Below are positions 29,298 to 34,527 of a stretch of 64,000 bases of DNA, piece by piece (the stretch's first letter is position 1; each line of letters starts with the position of its first letter). A model generated the notes under the pieces. That model was given only the letters and a program-made list of their open reading frames with translations, ran no database searches and was not told the origin of the DNA. The translations under genes and the position numbers were made by a program. The stretch comes from Paracoccaceae bacterium (lineage in GTDB: Bacteria > Pseudomonadota > Alphaproteobacteria > Rhodobacterales > Rhodobacteraceae), in the NCBI GenBank assembly GCA_004153385.1, contig SDAL01000001.1, positions 434,001 through 498,000 on the forward strand. The letters are read 5' to 3'.

Positions 29298-29927
29298 TTA
29301 TTGTTCACCCAAAACATGTGCCAGATCGCCGTATCCTGTCCATCTGCGTTCATAGGCAAGGCCTAGTTTTTCGGCGCAACTCCGCGCCTTTTGATCGAGG
29401 AGATGATCGTCGGTCTGTGCTTGGTACACCAGCTTGGTGTAATGGCCGAAATACATATCACGCAGTTCGGTAAAACGATCCAGCCCGAGCGGGCGCCAGA
29501 CAAAGGCATCAAACTGGCGCACTAGAAAATCGGTGAGGTAGAAGGCCGTGAATTCGTCTTCCGCCTTTGCAATAAACCGGTCCACACCTTCAAAAAAAGC
29601 ATAGCAATGTGGGCCGCGTATCATCTCGACCCCCAGCGCCGCGCATGTTGCCTGCAACTGTCCGCCAGTCCCGCAATCCGCGTATGCTACGAATACCTTT
29701 TGATACCGCGTCGCATTTTCCTGCACCGCAGCCCGAACCGCCTCCGGAATTTTCTCGGGATGATTGTGTAAAATAGCCGGCAGGCATGCCAGATCCAGAT
29801 GGTCCCAGCCATTTTGCCGCTTGAGCGCCAGTATCTCATGCGCAAGTGCACCACAGGCAATAATCAGAACGCGGCCGCGCCCATGTGGGACCAATCCGTC
29901 TTTGGTCAGTTGCGCATCGTTAAGCAC
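29298..29927 (-). CDS. DUF1638 domain-containing protein, probable part of the split methionine synthase system
   Basis: The best start is a GTG at 29925-29927, two bases after the upstream small gene; it gives 209 residues. The DUF1638 body has IIACGALAHEILALK near the start, then YADCGTGGQLQATCAALGVEMIRGPHCYAFFEG with conserved Cys/His, and a C-terminal aromatic block (FGHYTKLVYQAQT). The several Cys/His/Asp residues suggest metal or cofactor binding. DUF1638 genes recur beside the B12-binding and homocysteine-methyltransferase parts of split MetH in roseobacters, and from memory genetic data in a relative link one to methionine synthesis. The biochemical role is unknown. Confidence 0.8.
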   Translation of the reverse strand: MLNDAQLTKDGLVPHGRGRVLIIACGALAHEILALKRQNGWDHLDLACLPAILHNHPEKIPEAVRAAVQENATRYQKVFVAYADCGTGGQLQATCAALGVEMIRGPHCYAFFEGVDRFIAKAEDEFTAFYLTDFLVRQFDAFVWRPLGLDRFTELRDMYFGHYTKLVYQAQTDDHLLDQKARSCAEKLGLAYERRWTGYGDLAHVLGEQ

Positions 29928-29929
29928 GG

Positions 29930-30088
29930 TTATTCGACGCGTTGCATCAGCTTCAGGACTGCGGCCCCCAAAAGCGCCAGCATTGCCACCACCGCGAAGG
30001 GCAGTCCGGCAGTGAAAACAACCCATAGCGTCAGGCCCGCCGCGACTATCACCGAGATGATCAAAACAAGAAAGTGGGGCAATGGCAT
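29930..30088 (-). CDS. 52-residue membrane miniprotein upstream of DUF1638
   Basis: An ATG six bases after a GAGGAG ribosome binding site opens a 52-codon frame. It is almost entirely hydrophobic with two membrane segments (HFLVLIISVIVAAGLTLWVV and LPFAVVAMLALLGAAVL) and a short polar end (MQRVE). Its TAA is two bases before the GTG of the DUF1638 gene, so the two are co-translated. I do not recognise the family. The tight coupling suggests a membrane partner or anchor for DUF1638. Confidence 0.7.
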   Translation of the reverse strand: MPLPHFLVLIISVIVAAGLTLWVVFTAGLPFAVVAMLALLGAAVLKLMQRVE

Positions 30089-30131
30089 GTGTAATCTCCT
30101 CATGCCCTAGTATGACGTGCAAAGGTAAATG

Positions 30132-30162
30132 AAAAAAGGCCCCGCATCTGGATGGGGGCCTT
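30132..30162 (-). terminator. Intrinsic terminator after the corrinoid-protein gene
   Basis: On the minus strand, AAGGCCCC and GGGGCCTT enclose a loop of about 11 bases, and the stem runs into TTTTTTCATT. It lies 44 bases past the corrinoid-protein stop codon and 44 bases before the start of the miniprotein, so DUF1638 depends on readthrough or its own promoter. Confidence 0.8.
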
Positions 30163-30205
30163 AAAGGGGTCACGATTTTGACAGCGGCCCTGCCGGCCTG
30201 TGCCC

Positions 30206-30907
30206 TCAGGCTTGTGCGCTGTTATGTTTGCGCAACATAAGCGCTTTTGCGGTTTCCACAGCCACGGCTGCATCGCCGCAATAGGCATCCGCTCCGATGG
30301 CACGGCCGAATTCCTCGTTAAGCGGGGCGCCGCCGACCATAACGATATAGTCTTCGCGCAGGCCTTTTTCCTTCAACGTGTCGATCACGACCTTCATATA
30401 GGGCATGGTCGTGGTCAGAAGCGCAGACATCCCGATGATGTCCGCCTCTTCGGCCAGCGCTGTGTCGATATAGGCATCAACGGCGTTGTTAATGCCCAGA
30501 TCAACCACCTCGAAACCGGCCCCTTCCATCATCATCGCGACCAGATTCTTGCCGATGTCATGGATGTCGCCCTTGACCGTGCCGATGACCATCTTGCCCA
30601 TCTTGGGGGCGCCGGTTTCGACCAGAAGCGGTTTGAGGATGCTCATCCCGCCCTTCATCGCGTTGGCCGCCATCAGCACTTCCGGCACAAACAAGATCCC
30701 GTCGCGGAAGTCGTCGCCCACAACGGTCATGCCGGAGACAAGCGCGATGGTCAGAATGTCATAAGGCTGCCAGCCGCGCTCCAGCAGAATGTTGACGCCT
30801 TCTTCGATCTCTTCTTTCAGCCCGTCATAAAGGTCGTCTTGCATTTGCAAGGTGAGGTCCTCATCGCTGAGCTCTGACAAGATGATCTCTTGGTCGTCTT
30901 CCGACAT
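30206..30907 (-). CDS. Corrinoid (B12-binding) protein, cobalamin subunit of split methionine synthase
   Basis: The 233-residue protein has an N-terminal four-helix cap (LQMQDDLYDGLKEEIEEGVNILLERGWQPYDI) and a C-terminal B12-binding fold. The lower-ligand motif is GTVKGDIHDIGKNLV (D-x-H-x-x-G). The further cobalamin-contact blocks are IIGMSALLTTT and VMVGGAPLNEEF. It is the size of MtbC/MetH middle-domain proteins that shuttle a methyl group between a donor and an acceptor enzyme. With a homocysteine methyltransferase upstream and DUF1638 downstream on the same strand, it most likely serves as the cobalamin module of a MetH broken into separate proteins. A pterin-domain gene is not in this window. 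Confidence 0.88.
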   Translation of the reverse strand: MSEDDQEIILSELSDEDLTLQMQDDLYDGLKEEIEEGVNILLERGWQPYDILTIALVSGMTVVGDDFRDGILFVPEVLMAANAMKGGMSILKPLLVETGAPKMGKMVIGTVKGDIHDIGKNLVAMMMEGAGFEVVDLGINNAVDAYIDTALAEEADIIGMSALLTTTMPYMKVVIDTLKEKGLREDYIVMVGGAPLNEEFGRAIGADAYCGDAAVAVETAKALMLRKHNSAQA

Positions 30908-31063
30908 GGCATGTTCCTTGCAAAAGGGGGCGTGGTGCGCGCCGTGAAAGGTAGATCCCTATCGAGATTCGGTTTGGCCGACGCAGGGTTTGTTGATGAA
31001 TATAGACGGAGTTTGGCGAAGGGGGATTGAAAAACGCACCTTCGGTCTGTCGATGTGCCTGCG

Positions 31064-32077
31064 TCAGCTGCGGCGTCGACCACGACGTTCGCGACGCGGA
31101 CCCGCATCGGGGTTTGTTCCGTCATCGTCTGAGGAAAATCCGCCCAACCGCGCCGAAATCTCATCCAGCGTCGGGCGCGGGCCGCGCGGGCGGGTTTCCA
31201 GCGCCTCGCGCATTGCGCGCAGGTGCTCGGCCATTGTGCCGCAGCAACCGCCGATCAGGGTTGCACCGCAATCGCGTGCCATCACGGCGTAATCCGCCAT
31301 CAATTCGGGGGTGCCATCGTAATGGATATGCCCGTCCACATATTTCGGAATGCCTGCGTTCCCTTTGGCAATGATCGGACGCTCCACGCCGGTGGCTGCG
31401 AACCCCAGAACGGTGCGCAACAGATCGGATGCGCCGACACCACAATTTGCGCCAAAACCGATCGGCGGATTTGGCAGCTTTTCTACCATTGCCGACATTT
31501 TCGCCGCCGTCAGGCCCATCATTGTGCGCCCGGCGGTGTCAAAGCTCATGGTGCCGCAATACTCCATACCCGCCAAGCCGCATGCTTCTGCCGCAGCCTT
31601 GTATTCCTCGGGCGCAGAGATTGTTTCGATCCACACGATATCGGCGCCGCCTTCTTTCAGCCCCTCCGCCTGTTCATGGAACATTTCCACCGCGACGGAA
31701 TGTGTCATTGTGCCCATCGGCTCGAAAATCTCGCCGGTGGGGCCCATGGAGCCTGCAACGACGACGGTATGATTTTTTGCATCGGCGACATCGCGACCGA
31801 TTTCCGCAGCGATACGGTTGAGCTCCCGCACCCTGTTTTGGGCGTTGTGCAGCTTCAGCCGCGACGCATTGCCGCCAAAGCTGTTGGTCAGGAACAGATC
31901 GGAACCGGCATCCACCGCAAGGCGATACAGCTCCTTGATCTTGGCCGGCTCGTCGGTGTTCCACAGTTCCGGCGCATCGCCCGAACTAAGCCCCATATTA
32001 AACAGATTGGTGCCGGTCGCACCATCTGTCATCAGCCAGTCACGGGTTTCGAGAAGGCGGCTGAGCGCATTGGTCAT
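31064..32077 (-). CDS. Homocysteine S-methyltransferase, MetH N-terminal-domain type (split methionine synthase; often named betaine-homocysteine methyltransferase)
   Basis: From the ATG at 32075-32077 it is 337 residues. The zinc-dependent homocysteine-binding barrel is complete: LMTDGATGTNLFNMG at the start, the first zinc Cys in GFGANCGVGASD and the Cys pair in LIGGCCGTMAEHL. The C-terminal 30 residues are charged and disordered. Alone such proteins are annotated as betaine-homocysteine methyltransferases, but the adjacent corrinoid protein suggests it takes the methyl group from methylcobalamin, i.e. acts as the homocysteine module of MetH. The spacer to the corrinoid gene is 156 bases. 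Confidence 0.88.
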   Translation of the reverse strand: MTNALSRLLETRDWLMTDGATGTNLFNMGLSSGDAPELWNTDEPAKIKELYRLAVDAGSDLFLTNSFGGNASRLKLHNAQNRVRELNRIAAEIGRDVADAKNHTVVVAGSMGPTGEIFEPMGTMTHSVAVEMFHEQAEGLKEGGADIVWIETISAPEEYKAAAEACGLAGMEYCGTMSFDTAGRTMMGLTAAKMSAMVEKLPNPPIGFGANCGVGASDLLRTVLGFAATGVERPIIAKGNAGIPKYVDGHIHYDGTPELMADYAVMARDCGATLIGGCCGTMAEHLRAMREALETRPRGPRPTLDEISARLGGFSSDDDGTNPDAGPRRERRGRRRS

Positions 32078-32171: not shown

Positions 32172-34235
32172 TCAACTCCAACGTGAGCCAGATTTGTATG
32201 CGCGCGGGCGGGACGTCGTGTCGGTCGGGTCGGGGGAGGCGGCGCAGAGCGCCGGAGGGGTGCGGATGGCGCGCGCGATATCTGCCCCCGCCAGCCCCAG
32301 CGACCAACGCGACGGCGCGGCCAGATAAAGCGGGCTGAGACGCGGCGCAAACCCCATTTTGAACTGGCGAAGCCCTGTGCTGGACGGTTCCTTCTCGGCG
32401 CGTCGCCAGACCAGCGCGGCAATGGCACGGCTGTCTTGCGCGCGGGGTGGCAGGGCCGCGAGCGACAAGCGTGGACAGCCTTCGGCTTGTGCGGCGAGGA
32501 TGGCTGTGTGAATCAAGGCTTGCATCGTGCCATCGGGTGCATCGCAGGAGGGGCGCATGAGATCCAGCGCCCATTCCTGTGGGTTGGTGTGGAAGGTGGC
32601 AAACCCGATCAGGGTCGTATCGCGCCACGCAAGACAGATGGTTTGTCCTGCGACATATTCGGGAGTGTAGCGCCCCATGGAAAAGCCCCGCTCGCCGCCA
32701 CGCAGGCTTTTCCAGTCCTGCGCGATCCGCGCCATCTCGGTAAAAGGTGGGTCGGATAGACATATTTCACATCTGACACCGGCCTTTTGGGCCTTTCTCA
32801 GCTTTCTGCGCAATCCCGCGCGTCGTGGCGTTTCCATTGAAAAATCGTGAAGCGGCAACCAGCATTCTTCGGCAATGGGCAAGACGTGCCATCCTTGGCC
32901 ACGCGCGTGCGCGGCCGTCCGTGCCGAAACTTTGTAAAGGCATGGCAGACGTCCTTCGATCCGTGCCTCTGCGCGCAAATCGCGTAGCAAAAGATCAATT
33001 TCTTGTTTCCTGCCTGCCGGATCGCGCAACGCAACCAGAGATTGTGACGTCGTTCCCAGCATCCAGCCGCTTTGTGCTGTCTGACTGAGCAAGACAGCAT
33101 GCTCTCCCTGCCGCAAAAGCGTAAATTCTGCCAGCGGACTTTGATCGGCAAGCTGTGCAAGCCGCGGGGTCAGCTCTGGTGCCGGTGGTGCGATATGCCC
33201 GCGCGGGGCAGGGGTGGGAGCGGGCGCGCCCAAAACCAGTGCCCCCATGGCCAGAATTGCCGGCAGTGCGTAATAGACAATACGCCATGCAAGGATGGCC
33301 CCAAGTAATGCATGTGTGTCAGTATCGGGGACCAATGCCACAAGCGCGACTTCAAACGGGCCTACACCCCCAGGTGTGCCCGAGATCAGACCCGCGCCCA
33401 AAGCCAACAAAAACGCCGGATATAGGTCGATAAACGGATATTGGGTCTCTGCGGGCAGCAGCAGCCACAATGCGCAGGCGGCAAGCACGGTGTCCAAGAT
33501 GGTCAACCCGAAAACCCGTCCCAAGGTCGCGATCGGGGGGAGGCGCAGCGTCCAGCGACCGAAGCGGAACTGGTACCCCCATAGGCTTGCGCCCATAAGG
33601 CAGCACCCCGCCAGCACTACGCAGGCGGCACATACCACAACGAGGGGCGCTATAATCCACGGGATGGATGTAGGAAACATAAGAAGAACAGATGCCGTCA
33701 CCATAACCCAGCCAAGCAAAAAGCTTGCAGTCACCACCGCCGTCAGCCGCGATGCCTCGATCAGGGAAAAGCCGGGCAACATGCGCCACCGTACAAGCGC
33801 GCCCGATATCAGCCCAAAGCCAAGCGTTTGCGACAGAGCGATCGCGATCCATCCGCTGCGTCGCGCTTGTGTCGGGTTCTGGCCTGTTTTCATGGCTCGG
33901 TGAACAAGCGCGTCGTAATTGGCAAGGGCTGCAAATGAGCCTGCGCTTGCGATCAAGGCCCCGACCCATTGCCATGTGGCAATGCCTGCCACCGCGCGCC
34001 ATATGGCATCCACATCAAGGGTCAGAACCTGTTCGCGTATCACCCATAAAAACAACACAAGGATGGCAAGCGTTGCCCCCTGACGTACCCCGAACCGCGC
34101 CCATGTGGCAGGGATGGGGGCGGTCACGTCCGATCCTTTGCCGGACCACGCCGGAAAGGCTGCGCCCAAGGCGATTGTCTGTGCCGTCCGGGCATCATTT
34201 TTTTTTCGCTTCATACCCGCTAACGGCCACGCCAT
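32172..34235 (-). CDS. MprF-like protein: flippase-type membrane domain plus DUF2156 aminoacyltransferase
   Basis: The ATG at 34233-34235 has a GGGAGG ribosome binding site and gives 687 residues. About eight to ten membrane segments fill residues 40-340 (UPF0104/flippase-like, with GLISGTPGGVGPFEVALVAL). The C-terminal half (about 360-640) is a GNAT-like DUF2156 domain (GWMLGTTSQSLVALRDP, HDFSMETPRRAGLRRKLRKAQKAG, WALDLMRP, LSLAALPPRA). MprF proteins attach lysine or alanine from aminoacyl-tRNA to phosphatidylglycerol and flip the lipid outward, lowering surface charge and sensitivity to cationic peptides. The amino acid used here cannot be told. It is divergent from purC. Confidence 0.85.
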   Translation of the reverse strand: MAWPLAGMKRKKNDARTAQTIALGAAFPAWSGKGSDVTAPIPATWARFGVRQGATLAILVLFLWVIREQVLTLDVDAIWRAVAGIATWQWVGALIASAGSFAALANYDALVHRAMKTGQNPTQARRSGWIAIALSQTLGFGLISGALVRWRMLPGFSLIEASRLTAVVTASFLLGWVMVTASVLLMFPTSIPWIIAPLVVVCAACVVLAGCCLMGASLWGYQFRFGRWTLRLPPIATLGRVFGLTILDTVLAACALWLLLPAETQYPFIDLYPAFLLALGAGLISGTPGGVGPFEVALVALVPDTDTHALLGAILAWRIVYYALPAILAMGALVLGAPAPTPAPRGHIAPPAPELTPRLAQLADQSPLAEFTLLRQGEHAVLLSQTAQSGWMLGTTSQSLVALRDPAGRKQEIDLLLRDLRAEARIEGRLPCLYKVSARTAAHARGQGWHVLPIAEECWLPLHDFSMETPRRAGLRRKLRKAQKAGVRCEICLSDPPFTEMARIAQDWKSLRGGERGFSMGRYTPEYVAGQTICLAWRDTTLIGFATFHTNPQEWALDLMRPSCDAPDGTMQALIHTAILAAQAEGCPRLSLAALPPRAQDSRAIAALVWRRAEKEPSSTGLRQFKMGFAPRLSPLYLAAPSRWSLGLAGADIARAIRTPPALCAASPDPTDTTSRPRAYKSGSRWS

Positions 34236-34527
34236 TGCGTCCCTCCCCGTAGACCTACCCAAATCCCATCGTGATCTGACCCCAAACTTCCTTACGCCAG
34301 CTTAACGCAGACAAATTTGCGCCAAAGGCGCCGGCAATCGGCTATGGTGCCGGACGGCGACAGGCGATATCTGGCGGCAGCTTTCCCATCGACACGCAGA
34401 TCCGCGCGCGTGGACCTTGCGGCGCAAGCGGGCTTGGCCTATAGGGGCGAAAAGGGCATGATACCGCCCATTGCCCGCAGGCGCGCATGGGGCGTGTTGG
34501 CGGGTCCTCATTCCGAGTGGAGAGCAC

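Follow-up and report, generated by a model that had tools for sequence, protein, structure and literature searches.

DUF1638 beside a split cobalamin-dependent methyltransferase in a Paracoccaceae bacterium: a candidate helper of the corrinoid protein

This report concerns three neighbouring genes within a stretch of 64,000 nucleotides from a Paracoccaceae bacterium (GenBank assembly GCA_004153385.1, contig SDAL01000001.1, positions 434,001 to 498,000), hereafter the window. They encode a homocysteine methyltransferase (Bmt, also MtgE), a corrinoid protein (MtgC) and a protein of the family DUF1638. There is little doubt in our minds that the locus belongs to a split system of the MtgCDE type, and the explanation of the whole that we judge probable is a modular B12 methyl-transfer system in which DUF1638 would act as a helper of the corrinoid protein. 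The three genes are as follows.

31064..32077, minus strand: bmt/mtgE, zinc homocysteine S-methyltransferase of 337 residues (PF02574, E 4.4e-58)
30206..30907, minus strand: mtgC, stand-alone corrinoid protein of 233 residues (PF02607, E 7.7e-17; PF02310, E 2.8e-26)
29298..29927, minus strand: DUF1638 protein of type A, 209 residues from a proposed GTG start (PF07796, E 8.1e-30)

An earlier note, made from the sequence of the window, had described this trio in the same order and on the same strand, and had pointed to a D-x-H-x-x-G motif in the corrinoid protein; both observations hold, the motif lying within GDIHDIGKNLV. PF02574 is the only domain in Bmt, which is thus a separate homocysteine-binding protein, and its score against NF005718 (betaine--homocysteine S-methyltransferase) is 599 bits, over a curated cut-off of 338. 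Residues C212, C278 and C279, by their motif the putative zinc ligands, are invariant in all nine aligned sequences, that of the window included. The closest solved relative of Bmt is 1q7m (7.3e-33), a fragment of MetH from T. maritima, and the best betaine-homocysteine methyltransferase (BHMT) chain is 1umy (1e-10); judged by sequence, Bmt is closer to the homocysteine domain of MetH than to the BHMT chains. MtgC combines the B12-cap and B12-binding domains on a protein of its own. It scores 191.6 bits with the MtgC model NF047996 versus 151.3 with the MetH model TIGR02082, and more generally methylamine- and MtgC-type corrinoid models of NCBIfam outscore the MetH model, all of these scores being below the curated cut-offs. 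Its nearest solved relatives are 1y80, a stand-alone cobalamin-binding protein, and 7xcn, a trimethylamine corrinoid protein, with MetH 1bmt behind them. MtgC has been reported as phylogenetically distinct from MetH (Mausz 2025, PMC12478193).

The remaining parts of such a system were found at other places in the genome (3.77 Mb, 9 contigs, 99.99% complete). A lone pterin-binding methyltransferase of the methyl-tetrahydrofolate:corrinoid type (MtgD) lies at G000:C1:948796-949506 (NF005719, 395.6 bits against a cut-off of 259), the remaining PF00809 protein of the genome being dihydropteroate synthase. There is one reactivase of the RACo/RamA type, with linker, middle and C-terminal domains, and one MTTB gene (PF06253, C1:751490-752983), giving the combination of MTTB-type protein, MtgC and MtgD that defines MtgBCD. 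The MTTB family spans several methylated amines. Because PF02607 matches once genome-wide (E 1.2e-16, a score fitting mtgC of the window) and the MetH reactivation domain PF02965 never, no MetH was found in this genome, that is, no polypeptide uniting the modules with PF02965. A lone pterin-binding protein, a RamA-like reactivase and a missing full-length MetH are what the earlier note had predicted, and the genome search agrees with it on all three. A second PF02574 protein, of 300 residues, falls under every curated NCBIfam cut-off. A 305-residue open reading frame (ORF) just upstream of the pterin-binding gene has a weak MetF-like match (E 2e-4, far under the cut-off).

The methyl-transfer scheme that we propose would run as follows. 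The locus would supply the homocysteine-binding protein Bmt/MtgE, the shared corrinoid protein MtgC and the DUF1638 helper, with MtgD, MTTB and RACo provided from elsewhere in the genome. A methyl group, coming from methyl-tetrahydrofolate by way of MtgD or, by way of MTTB, from a quaternary amine (glycine betaine, for instance), would be placed on the cobalamin of MtgC and passed from there to homocysteine by Bmt. These steps are backed by genetics in relatives (Price 2018, PMC5764234; Mausz 2025, PMC12478193), and gene content suggests them for this organism. Price 2018 reports, as the earlier note had stated of roseobacter relatives, a split methionine synthase inferred from genetics in Phaeobacter inhibens, together with a RamA-like and a DUF1638 protein (genes PGA1_c13370, c13350, c16040, c15200 and c13340). 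Mutants in the genes for the homocysteine-binding, corrinoid and pterin-binding proteins are all rescued by methionine and have similar fitness patterns; methionine also rescues mutants of the DUF1638 gene, PGA1_c13340, which is the terminal gene of its operon (PMC5764234). The earlier note's description of the trio as MetH cut into pieces is too narrow, because in Ruegeria pomeroyi MtgC and MtgD act in betaine demethylation as well as in methionine synthesis, according to Mausz 2025 (PMC12478193), where DUF1638 is also reported at higher abundance on N-osmolytes. The genome of the window further encodes a MesD-like protein (NF006589, 690.3 bits, cut-off 392) adjoining MesX (PF08908, 577.1 bits; L123:7586-9676). 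MesD/MesX is described as an aerobic methionine synthase independent of methyl folate and B12 (PMC7857596). From its sequence the pair is probably a second, B12- and folate-independent route to methionine, and it could hide a methionine requirement on loss of the split synthase.

Among 240 alphaproteobacterial genomes, a set for which the Fisher values ignore relatedness, DUF1638 matches in 43, the C-terminal domain of RACo (RACo_C_ter) in 55 and MTTB in 51. DUF1638 is accompanied by RACo in 42 of its 43 genomes (the exception, G127, is 74% complete) and likewise by MTTB in 42 (the exception, G125, is 98% complete and has a weaker-scoring type of RACo), and in 22 of the 43 DUF1638 and RACo are at most 15 kb apart. 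That DUF1638 follows RACo had been reported for 158 alphaproteobacteria (PMC5764234). Across 14 control genomes, DUF1638, RACo and MTTB each match in Methanosarcina acetivorans alone. The earlier note's suggestion that DUF1638 is an extra part of MetH is not sustained, because DUF1638 tracks MTTB and RACo, because MetH-length ORFs coexist with it (in 19 of the 43 positive genomes PF02607 falls in an ORF of at least 892 residues by our reading of the match rows), and because its distant relatives are found with UroD systems and kinases. The same 19 genomes leave the use of DUF1638 as a marker of MetH loss unsupported.

The partner that stays closest to DUF1638 is the corrinoid protein. Within 56 loci of type A (the type of the window) and of a second stand-alone type, B, a corrinoid gene lies at most 1.5 kb from DUF1638 in 49, so that DUF1638 does not occur mostly apart from corrinoid proteins, an outcome that the earlier note had named as telling against it; the seven loci with none nearby are L015, L022, L133, L140, L142, L146 and L150. 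In a set of 80 related loci, nearly all from Rhodobacteraceae judging by their titles, the corrinoid gene is visible in 72 and Bmt in 58 of the fetched stretches, some contigs being too short, and we therefore do not regard the grouping of the genes as chance. The distance from DUF1638 to the corrinoid gene is below 800 bases in 60 of those 72.

The DUF1638 protein of the window scores 104.3 bits against PF07796 (cut-off 27), and its most likely start is the GTG at 29927. With residues numbered on the translation of window positions 29301-29900, C16, C39, H45, C76, H98 and C99 are invariant in all 81 rows of close relatives. Across 29 diverse members of types A, B and K (the last being kinases with a DUF1638-like N-terminal domain), C16, C76 and C99 are the sole invariant columns, and position 22 is always E or D. 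H45 is constant in types A and B (22/22), and all seven type K members have a Cys one column away; C39 (in 13 of 14) and H98 are traits of type A. In an AlphaFold2 model (mean predicted local distance difference test score, pLDDT, 91.3; predicted template modelling score, pTM, 0.84) C16, C76 and C99 fall at the end of beta1, after beta3 and after the short beta4. The DUF1638 frames of 300-383 residues seen in some loci are stop-to-stop lengths, the extra N-terminus being noise-like in the two that were read (L014, L029). Remote Pfam relatives were sought with 30 members, and none was matched by more than one of them. In the library searched, just three papers name DUF1638 and one names PF07796; the sole mention in the third of these papers is a row of a protein table.

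DUF1638 matches occur in 44 of 299 genomes across the phylum. All ten type B loci (part of the 56) have a corrinoid gene and an adjoining gene for a UroD-type methyltransferase, and in the two read at length (L160 and L167) a RACo-type gene with Fer2, middle and C-terminal domains stands upstream:

L167:118-7331 and L160:3925-13472: gene run RACo-type, corrinoid, UroD, DUF1638 type B

In L167 this run leads on to a hybrid histidine kinase; in L160 there follow a PAS/GAF protein with no detected kinase domain, a small ORF and then a hybrid kinase. Type K is represented by 12 loci (L159, L161-L166, L194-L197 and L203), of which seven built the profile, four are new and one is from Azoarcus. Of 48 genomes in the class to which G269 belongs, 13 match the K profile, ten of them strongly (six profile members and the four new); in the 240 alphaproteobacteria, a set containing no positive control, it has no match. 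HATPase_c is over its cut-off in nine of ten kinases scanned with Pfam, the tenth (L194) being cut off by the end of the locus, and HisKA in eight, being not found in L159 and just under the cut-off in Azoarcus. Aligned with hhalign over 177-188 columns, types A and K give E 2.2e-6, A and B 5.6e-19, and B and K 4.7e-14, as against 0.13-0.47 for comparisons between unrelated families. Both a corrinoid protein and a UroD enzyme are encoded upstream of the kinase in nine of the 12 type K loci, and D-x-H-x-x-G is kept in the four such corrinoid proteins that were read; the locus in L164 begins at a contig end. Azoarcus sp. KH32C is among the nine: on its plasmid pAZKH the order is WP_015451904.1 (cobalamin-dependent), WP_015451905.1 (UroD family) and WP_015451906.1 (ATP-binding protein), which is the kinase. 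A pyrroloquinoline quinone (PQQ) methanol/ethanol dehydrogenase is encoded about 7.5 kb away from this run, and genes for formylmethanofuran dehydrogenase are about 5 kb away. Elsewhere on the plasmid, genes for glycine betaine transport accompany a locus of type A. Judged by title or abstract, no literature was found on corrinoid-linked sensor kinases of the DUF1638 type.

Among the partners of DUF1638 the corrinoid protein recurs most steadily, the methyltransferase (MTTB or UroD) and the presence of RACo being variable, and we therefore propose the corrinoid protein as the target of DUF1638. Going beyond the observed presence, co-occurrence, neighbourhood, cysteine invariance and domain fusion, we infer the following steps. 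MtgC that lapses into inactive cob(II)alamin would be reduced by the RACo/RamA-type reactivase, and DUF1638, docked on the corrinoid protein, would with RACo recognise the inactive form or help to reduce it. A metal or Fe-S centre on DUF1638 would be held by C16, C76 and C99, perhaps together with one more ligand around position 45, which would be His in types A and B and the neighbouring Cys in type K. Where it is fused to a kinase, the domain would pass information on the state of a corrinoid protein to a phosphorelay. We put the action of DUF1638 in reactivation at an even chance, and hold the kinase as a reader of state with less assurance than that. Tentatively, then, DUF1638 may be a three-cysteine corrinoid-state module, the free form of which couples an ASKHA reactivase to the inactive corrinoid protein of MTTB and UroD systems, and the kinase-fused form of which, an input domain served by a corrinoid protein and UroD methyltransferase of its own, makes up an undescribed class of two-component sensors reading cobalamin methylation or redox state; the methylotrophy region of pAZKH in Azoarcus would offer one instance.

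Several observations weigh against this proposal. Thirteen of the 55 RACo genomes have no DUF1638 match; three of these have RACo fragments (G007, G077, G228), four solely the weaker-scoring RACo type (G081, G187, G224, G229) and four are at most 82% complete (G071, G074, G193, G226), which leaves two genuine exceptions, G109 and G176. In G109 (99% complete) MtgC, MtgD and RACo form one run of genes (L125) and MTTB is present too, and G176 (93%) has RACo, MtgD and MTTB (L127) and neither DUF1638 nor a stand-alone corrinoid protein. Because these two have RACo and MTTB without it, DUF1638 is not strictly required; nine of the 51 MTTB genomes likewise lack it. The idea that DUF1638 replaces a lost Fe-S domain of RACo was rejected, because RACo keeps its own [2Fe-2S] cysteines: all eight RACo N-termini read have the pattern C-x5-C-x2-C plus a further Cys 29 to 45 residues on. 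The three cysteines of DUF1638 would sit on one edge of a parallel alpha/beta sheet, their closeness being judged from strand positions alone, and their conservation would equally fit a zinc site or thiol chemistry. Foldseek against the PDB and viral models gave no match at E <= 0.001 (best 2.5e-3, TM 0.3), and no solved sequence relative of DUF1638 was found; with no structure match, the fold gives no function. As for type K, only four of the ten kinases pass the Pfam cut-off for DUF1638 (L159, L161, L162, L164), L163, L194 and Azoarcus being just under it and L195-L197 unreported, and the homology of those under the cut-off rests on profile A3. In L196 and L197, two of the four new K loci, neither a corrinoid nor a UroD gene is found up to 1.5 kb away.

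Two alternatives keep DUF1638 at the corrinoid protein and give it another task. It might load or mature that protein, inserting cobalamin or setting its lower ligand, outside reductive reactivation. The corrinoid gene is its tightest neighbour (the 49 of 56 loci, across different methyltransferases), its Cys and His residues are possible ligands for cobalt or a corrinoid, and RACo occurs without it in G109; that genome, however, has a corrinoid protein without DUF1638 as well, the presence of DUF1638 follows RACo in the genomes surveyed here and in the earlier report (PMC5764234), and fusion to a kinase suits a reader of state better than a loader. We think loading unlikely, and find it harder still to believe that DUF1638 is purely regulatory in all its forms, sensing corrinoid methylation or redox state and controlling expression or activity with no part in reactivation chemistry. 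The kinase-fused form beside corrinoid and UroD genes in nine of 12 loci speaks for regulation, as do the type B loci where the gene after DUF1638 encodes a hybrid kinase (L167) or a PAS/GAF protein (L160, with the next detected kinase two ORFs on). Against it, a tblastn search with one kinase query found no kinase-like match in 46 type A loci with 1.5-kb flanks, and the methionine requirement of the type A knockout reported in P. inhibens (PMC5764234) is stronger than the loss of a sensor would be expected to cause.

Of a different kind is the view that Bmt is mainly a betaine or dimethylsulphoniopropionate (DMSP):homocysteine methyltransferase working by itself, the trio being neighbours in a methyl-donor locus and not one enzyme. 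The score against NF005718 favours it, and purified P. inhibens Bmt is reported to form methionine from betaine or DMSP with no cobalamin (Narvaez-Barragan and co-workers, PMC12366255). The closer match to the MetH homocysteine domain points the other way, as do the shared methionine rescue and similar fitness of the three classes of P. inhibens mutant (PMC5764234) and the failure of Bmt to substitute for DmdA in vivo under standard conditions (PMC12366255). As the main role of Bmt we consider this improbable; a solo role and a role in the split synthase are mutually compatible. Lastly, DUF1638 could be a relative of the HgdB subunit of 2-hydroxyacyl-CoA dehydratase, to which an ASKHA ATPase supplies electrons. 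The parallel is one of analogy, in that RACo and the HgdC activator both belong to the ASKHA ATPases and that three Cys of HgdB bind a [4Fe-4S] cluster. Profile comparison with 11 HGD-D sequences gave E 0.13 and 0.47, and unrelated families gave 0.24 and 0.38, no worse; membership of PF06050 was rejected on this ground, and we give the relationship scarcely any credence.

The arrangement of the genes varies among relatives. In the window, 156 gene-free bases separate Bmt from MtgC; a gap below 400 bases is found in just 7 of the 58 relatives, and one of at least 1 kb in 50. Five of seven relatives read (L039, L048, L062, L089, L116) have between the two genes an ORF on the opposite strand with a radical-SAM-like Cys motif, which is missing at window positions 30907-31064; it was set aside as a component, being on the opposite strand. 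An MprF-like protein (LPG_synthase_C and LPG_synthase_TM; 32172-34262, minus strand) is encoded directly upstream of Bmt. The locus of G109 (L125:8955-14082) has the order corrinoid, MetF-like, MtgD, RACo. The weaker-scoring RACo type (G229, L128:7381-12286; G125, L130) stands beside corrinoid, UroD-type and MtgD-like proteins, with no DUF1638 in the locus.

Two small features lie between mtgC and DUF1638:

30132..30160, minus strand: terminator-like hairpin (GGCCCC...GGGGCC, then T6), between mtgC and the small ORF, found by eye
29930..30088, minus strand: small hydrophobic ORF of 52 residues with a Shine-Dalgarno-like AGGAG, upstream of DUF1638

The loop of the hairpin (11 bases) exceeds the limit of the terminator scan, so that it is outside that scan's list; the scan itself found 7 terminator-like sites in the window against 3.5 expected. 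A promoter scan of the window was at chance level (1 found, 1.1 expected), and Rfam at gathering thresholds gave one tRNA and nothing else in the whole window. The 52-residue ORF, the stop of which is two bases ahead of the proposed GTG of DUF1638, looks from its sequence like a small membrane protein and has no Pfam family above cut-off. Similar sequences stand upstream of DUF1638 in 34 of the 80 related loci (E <= 0.01, composition correction off; 14 of 80 with the default correction), and nowhere else in those loci at E <= 0.01; 33 of the 34 start with ATG, many with a purine-rich stretch upstream.

As split methionine synthases have already been published (Phaeobacter in 2018; Ruegeria MtgBCDE in 2025), the window holds a further member of a known system, one more genome for it, and the part that matters is DUF1638. 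The protein has had a clear phenotype since 2018 and no specific proposed function. Its role can now be tested, the invariant cysteines singling out residues to mutate and the fusion to kinases next to corrinoid genes suggesting that corrinoid proteins are recognised directly. Were the proposal true, it would help to account for the upkeep of active corrinoid methyltransferases in aerobic bacteria, and would reveal a means by which bacteria sense one-carbon supply via B12.

Compared with the P. inhibens system, the window genome likewise has the three catalytic modules on separate genes, a RamA-like reactivase elsewhere, DUF1638 behind the corrinoid gene and no PF02965; in P. inhibens, however, the gene numbering places a radical-SAM gene (PGA1_c13360) between the two that in the window are separated by 156 bases and nothing else. 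R. pomeroyi MtgBCDE is matched by MtgC-, MtgD-, MtgE- and MTTB-type genes in the window genome, dispersed in the same manner, but its proteome data contain two MTTB proteins versus the one MTTB gene here. On pSymB of Sinorhizobium meliloti and plasmid IV of Paracoccus aminovorans, a corrinoid protein is again followed by DUF1638, with MTTB, MtgD and an ASKHA protein (and, on pSymB, bmt) within about 20 kb, whereas the genes of the window genome are scattered along the chromosome. The Methanosarcina sensor kinases of the MsmS type resemble type K in being linked to corrinoid methyltransferase systems; their input is a haem-binding GAF domain, whereas type K has a DUF1638-like input, mostly with corrinoid and UroD genes upstream. 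Canonical MetH, finally, would be expected to carry out the same reactions as the modules described here, and it does so as one polypeptide with PF02965, in contrast to the separate proteins, the RACo reactivase and the MtgC nearer to methylamine-type corrinoid proteins that characterise the present system.

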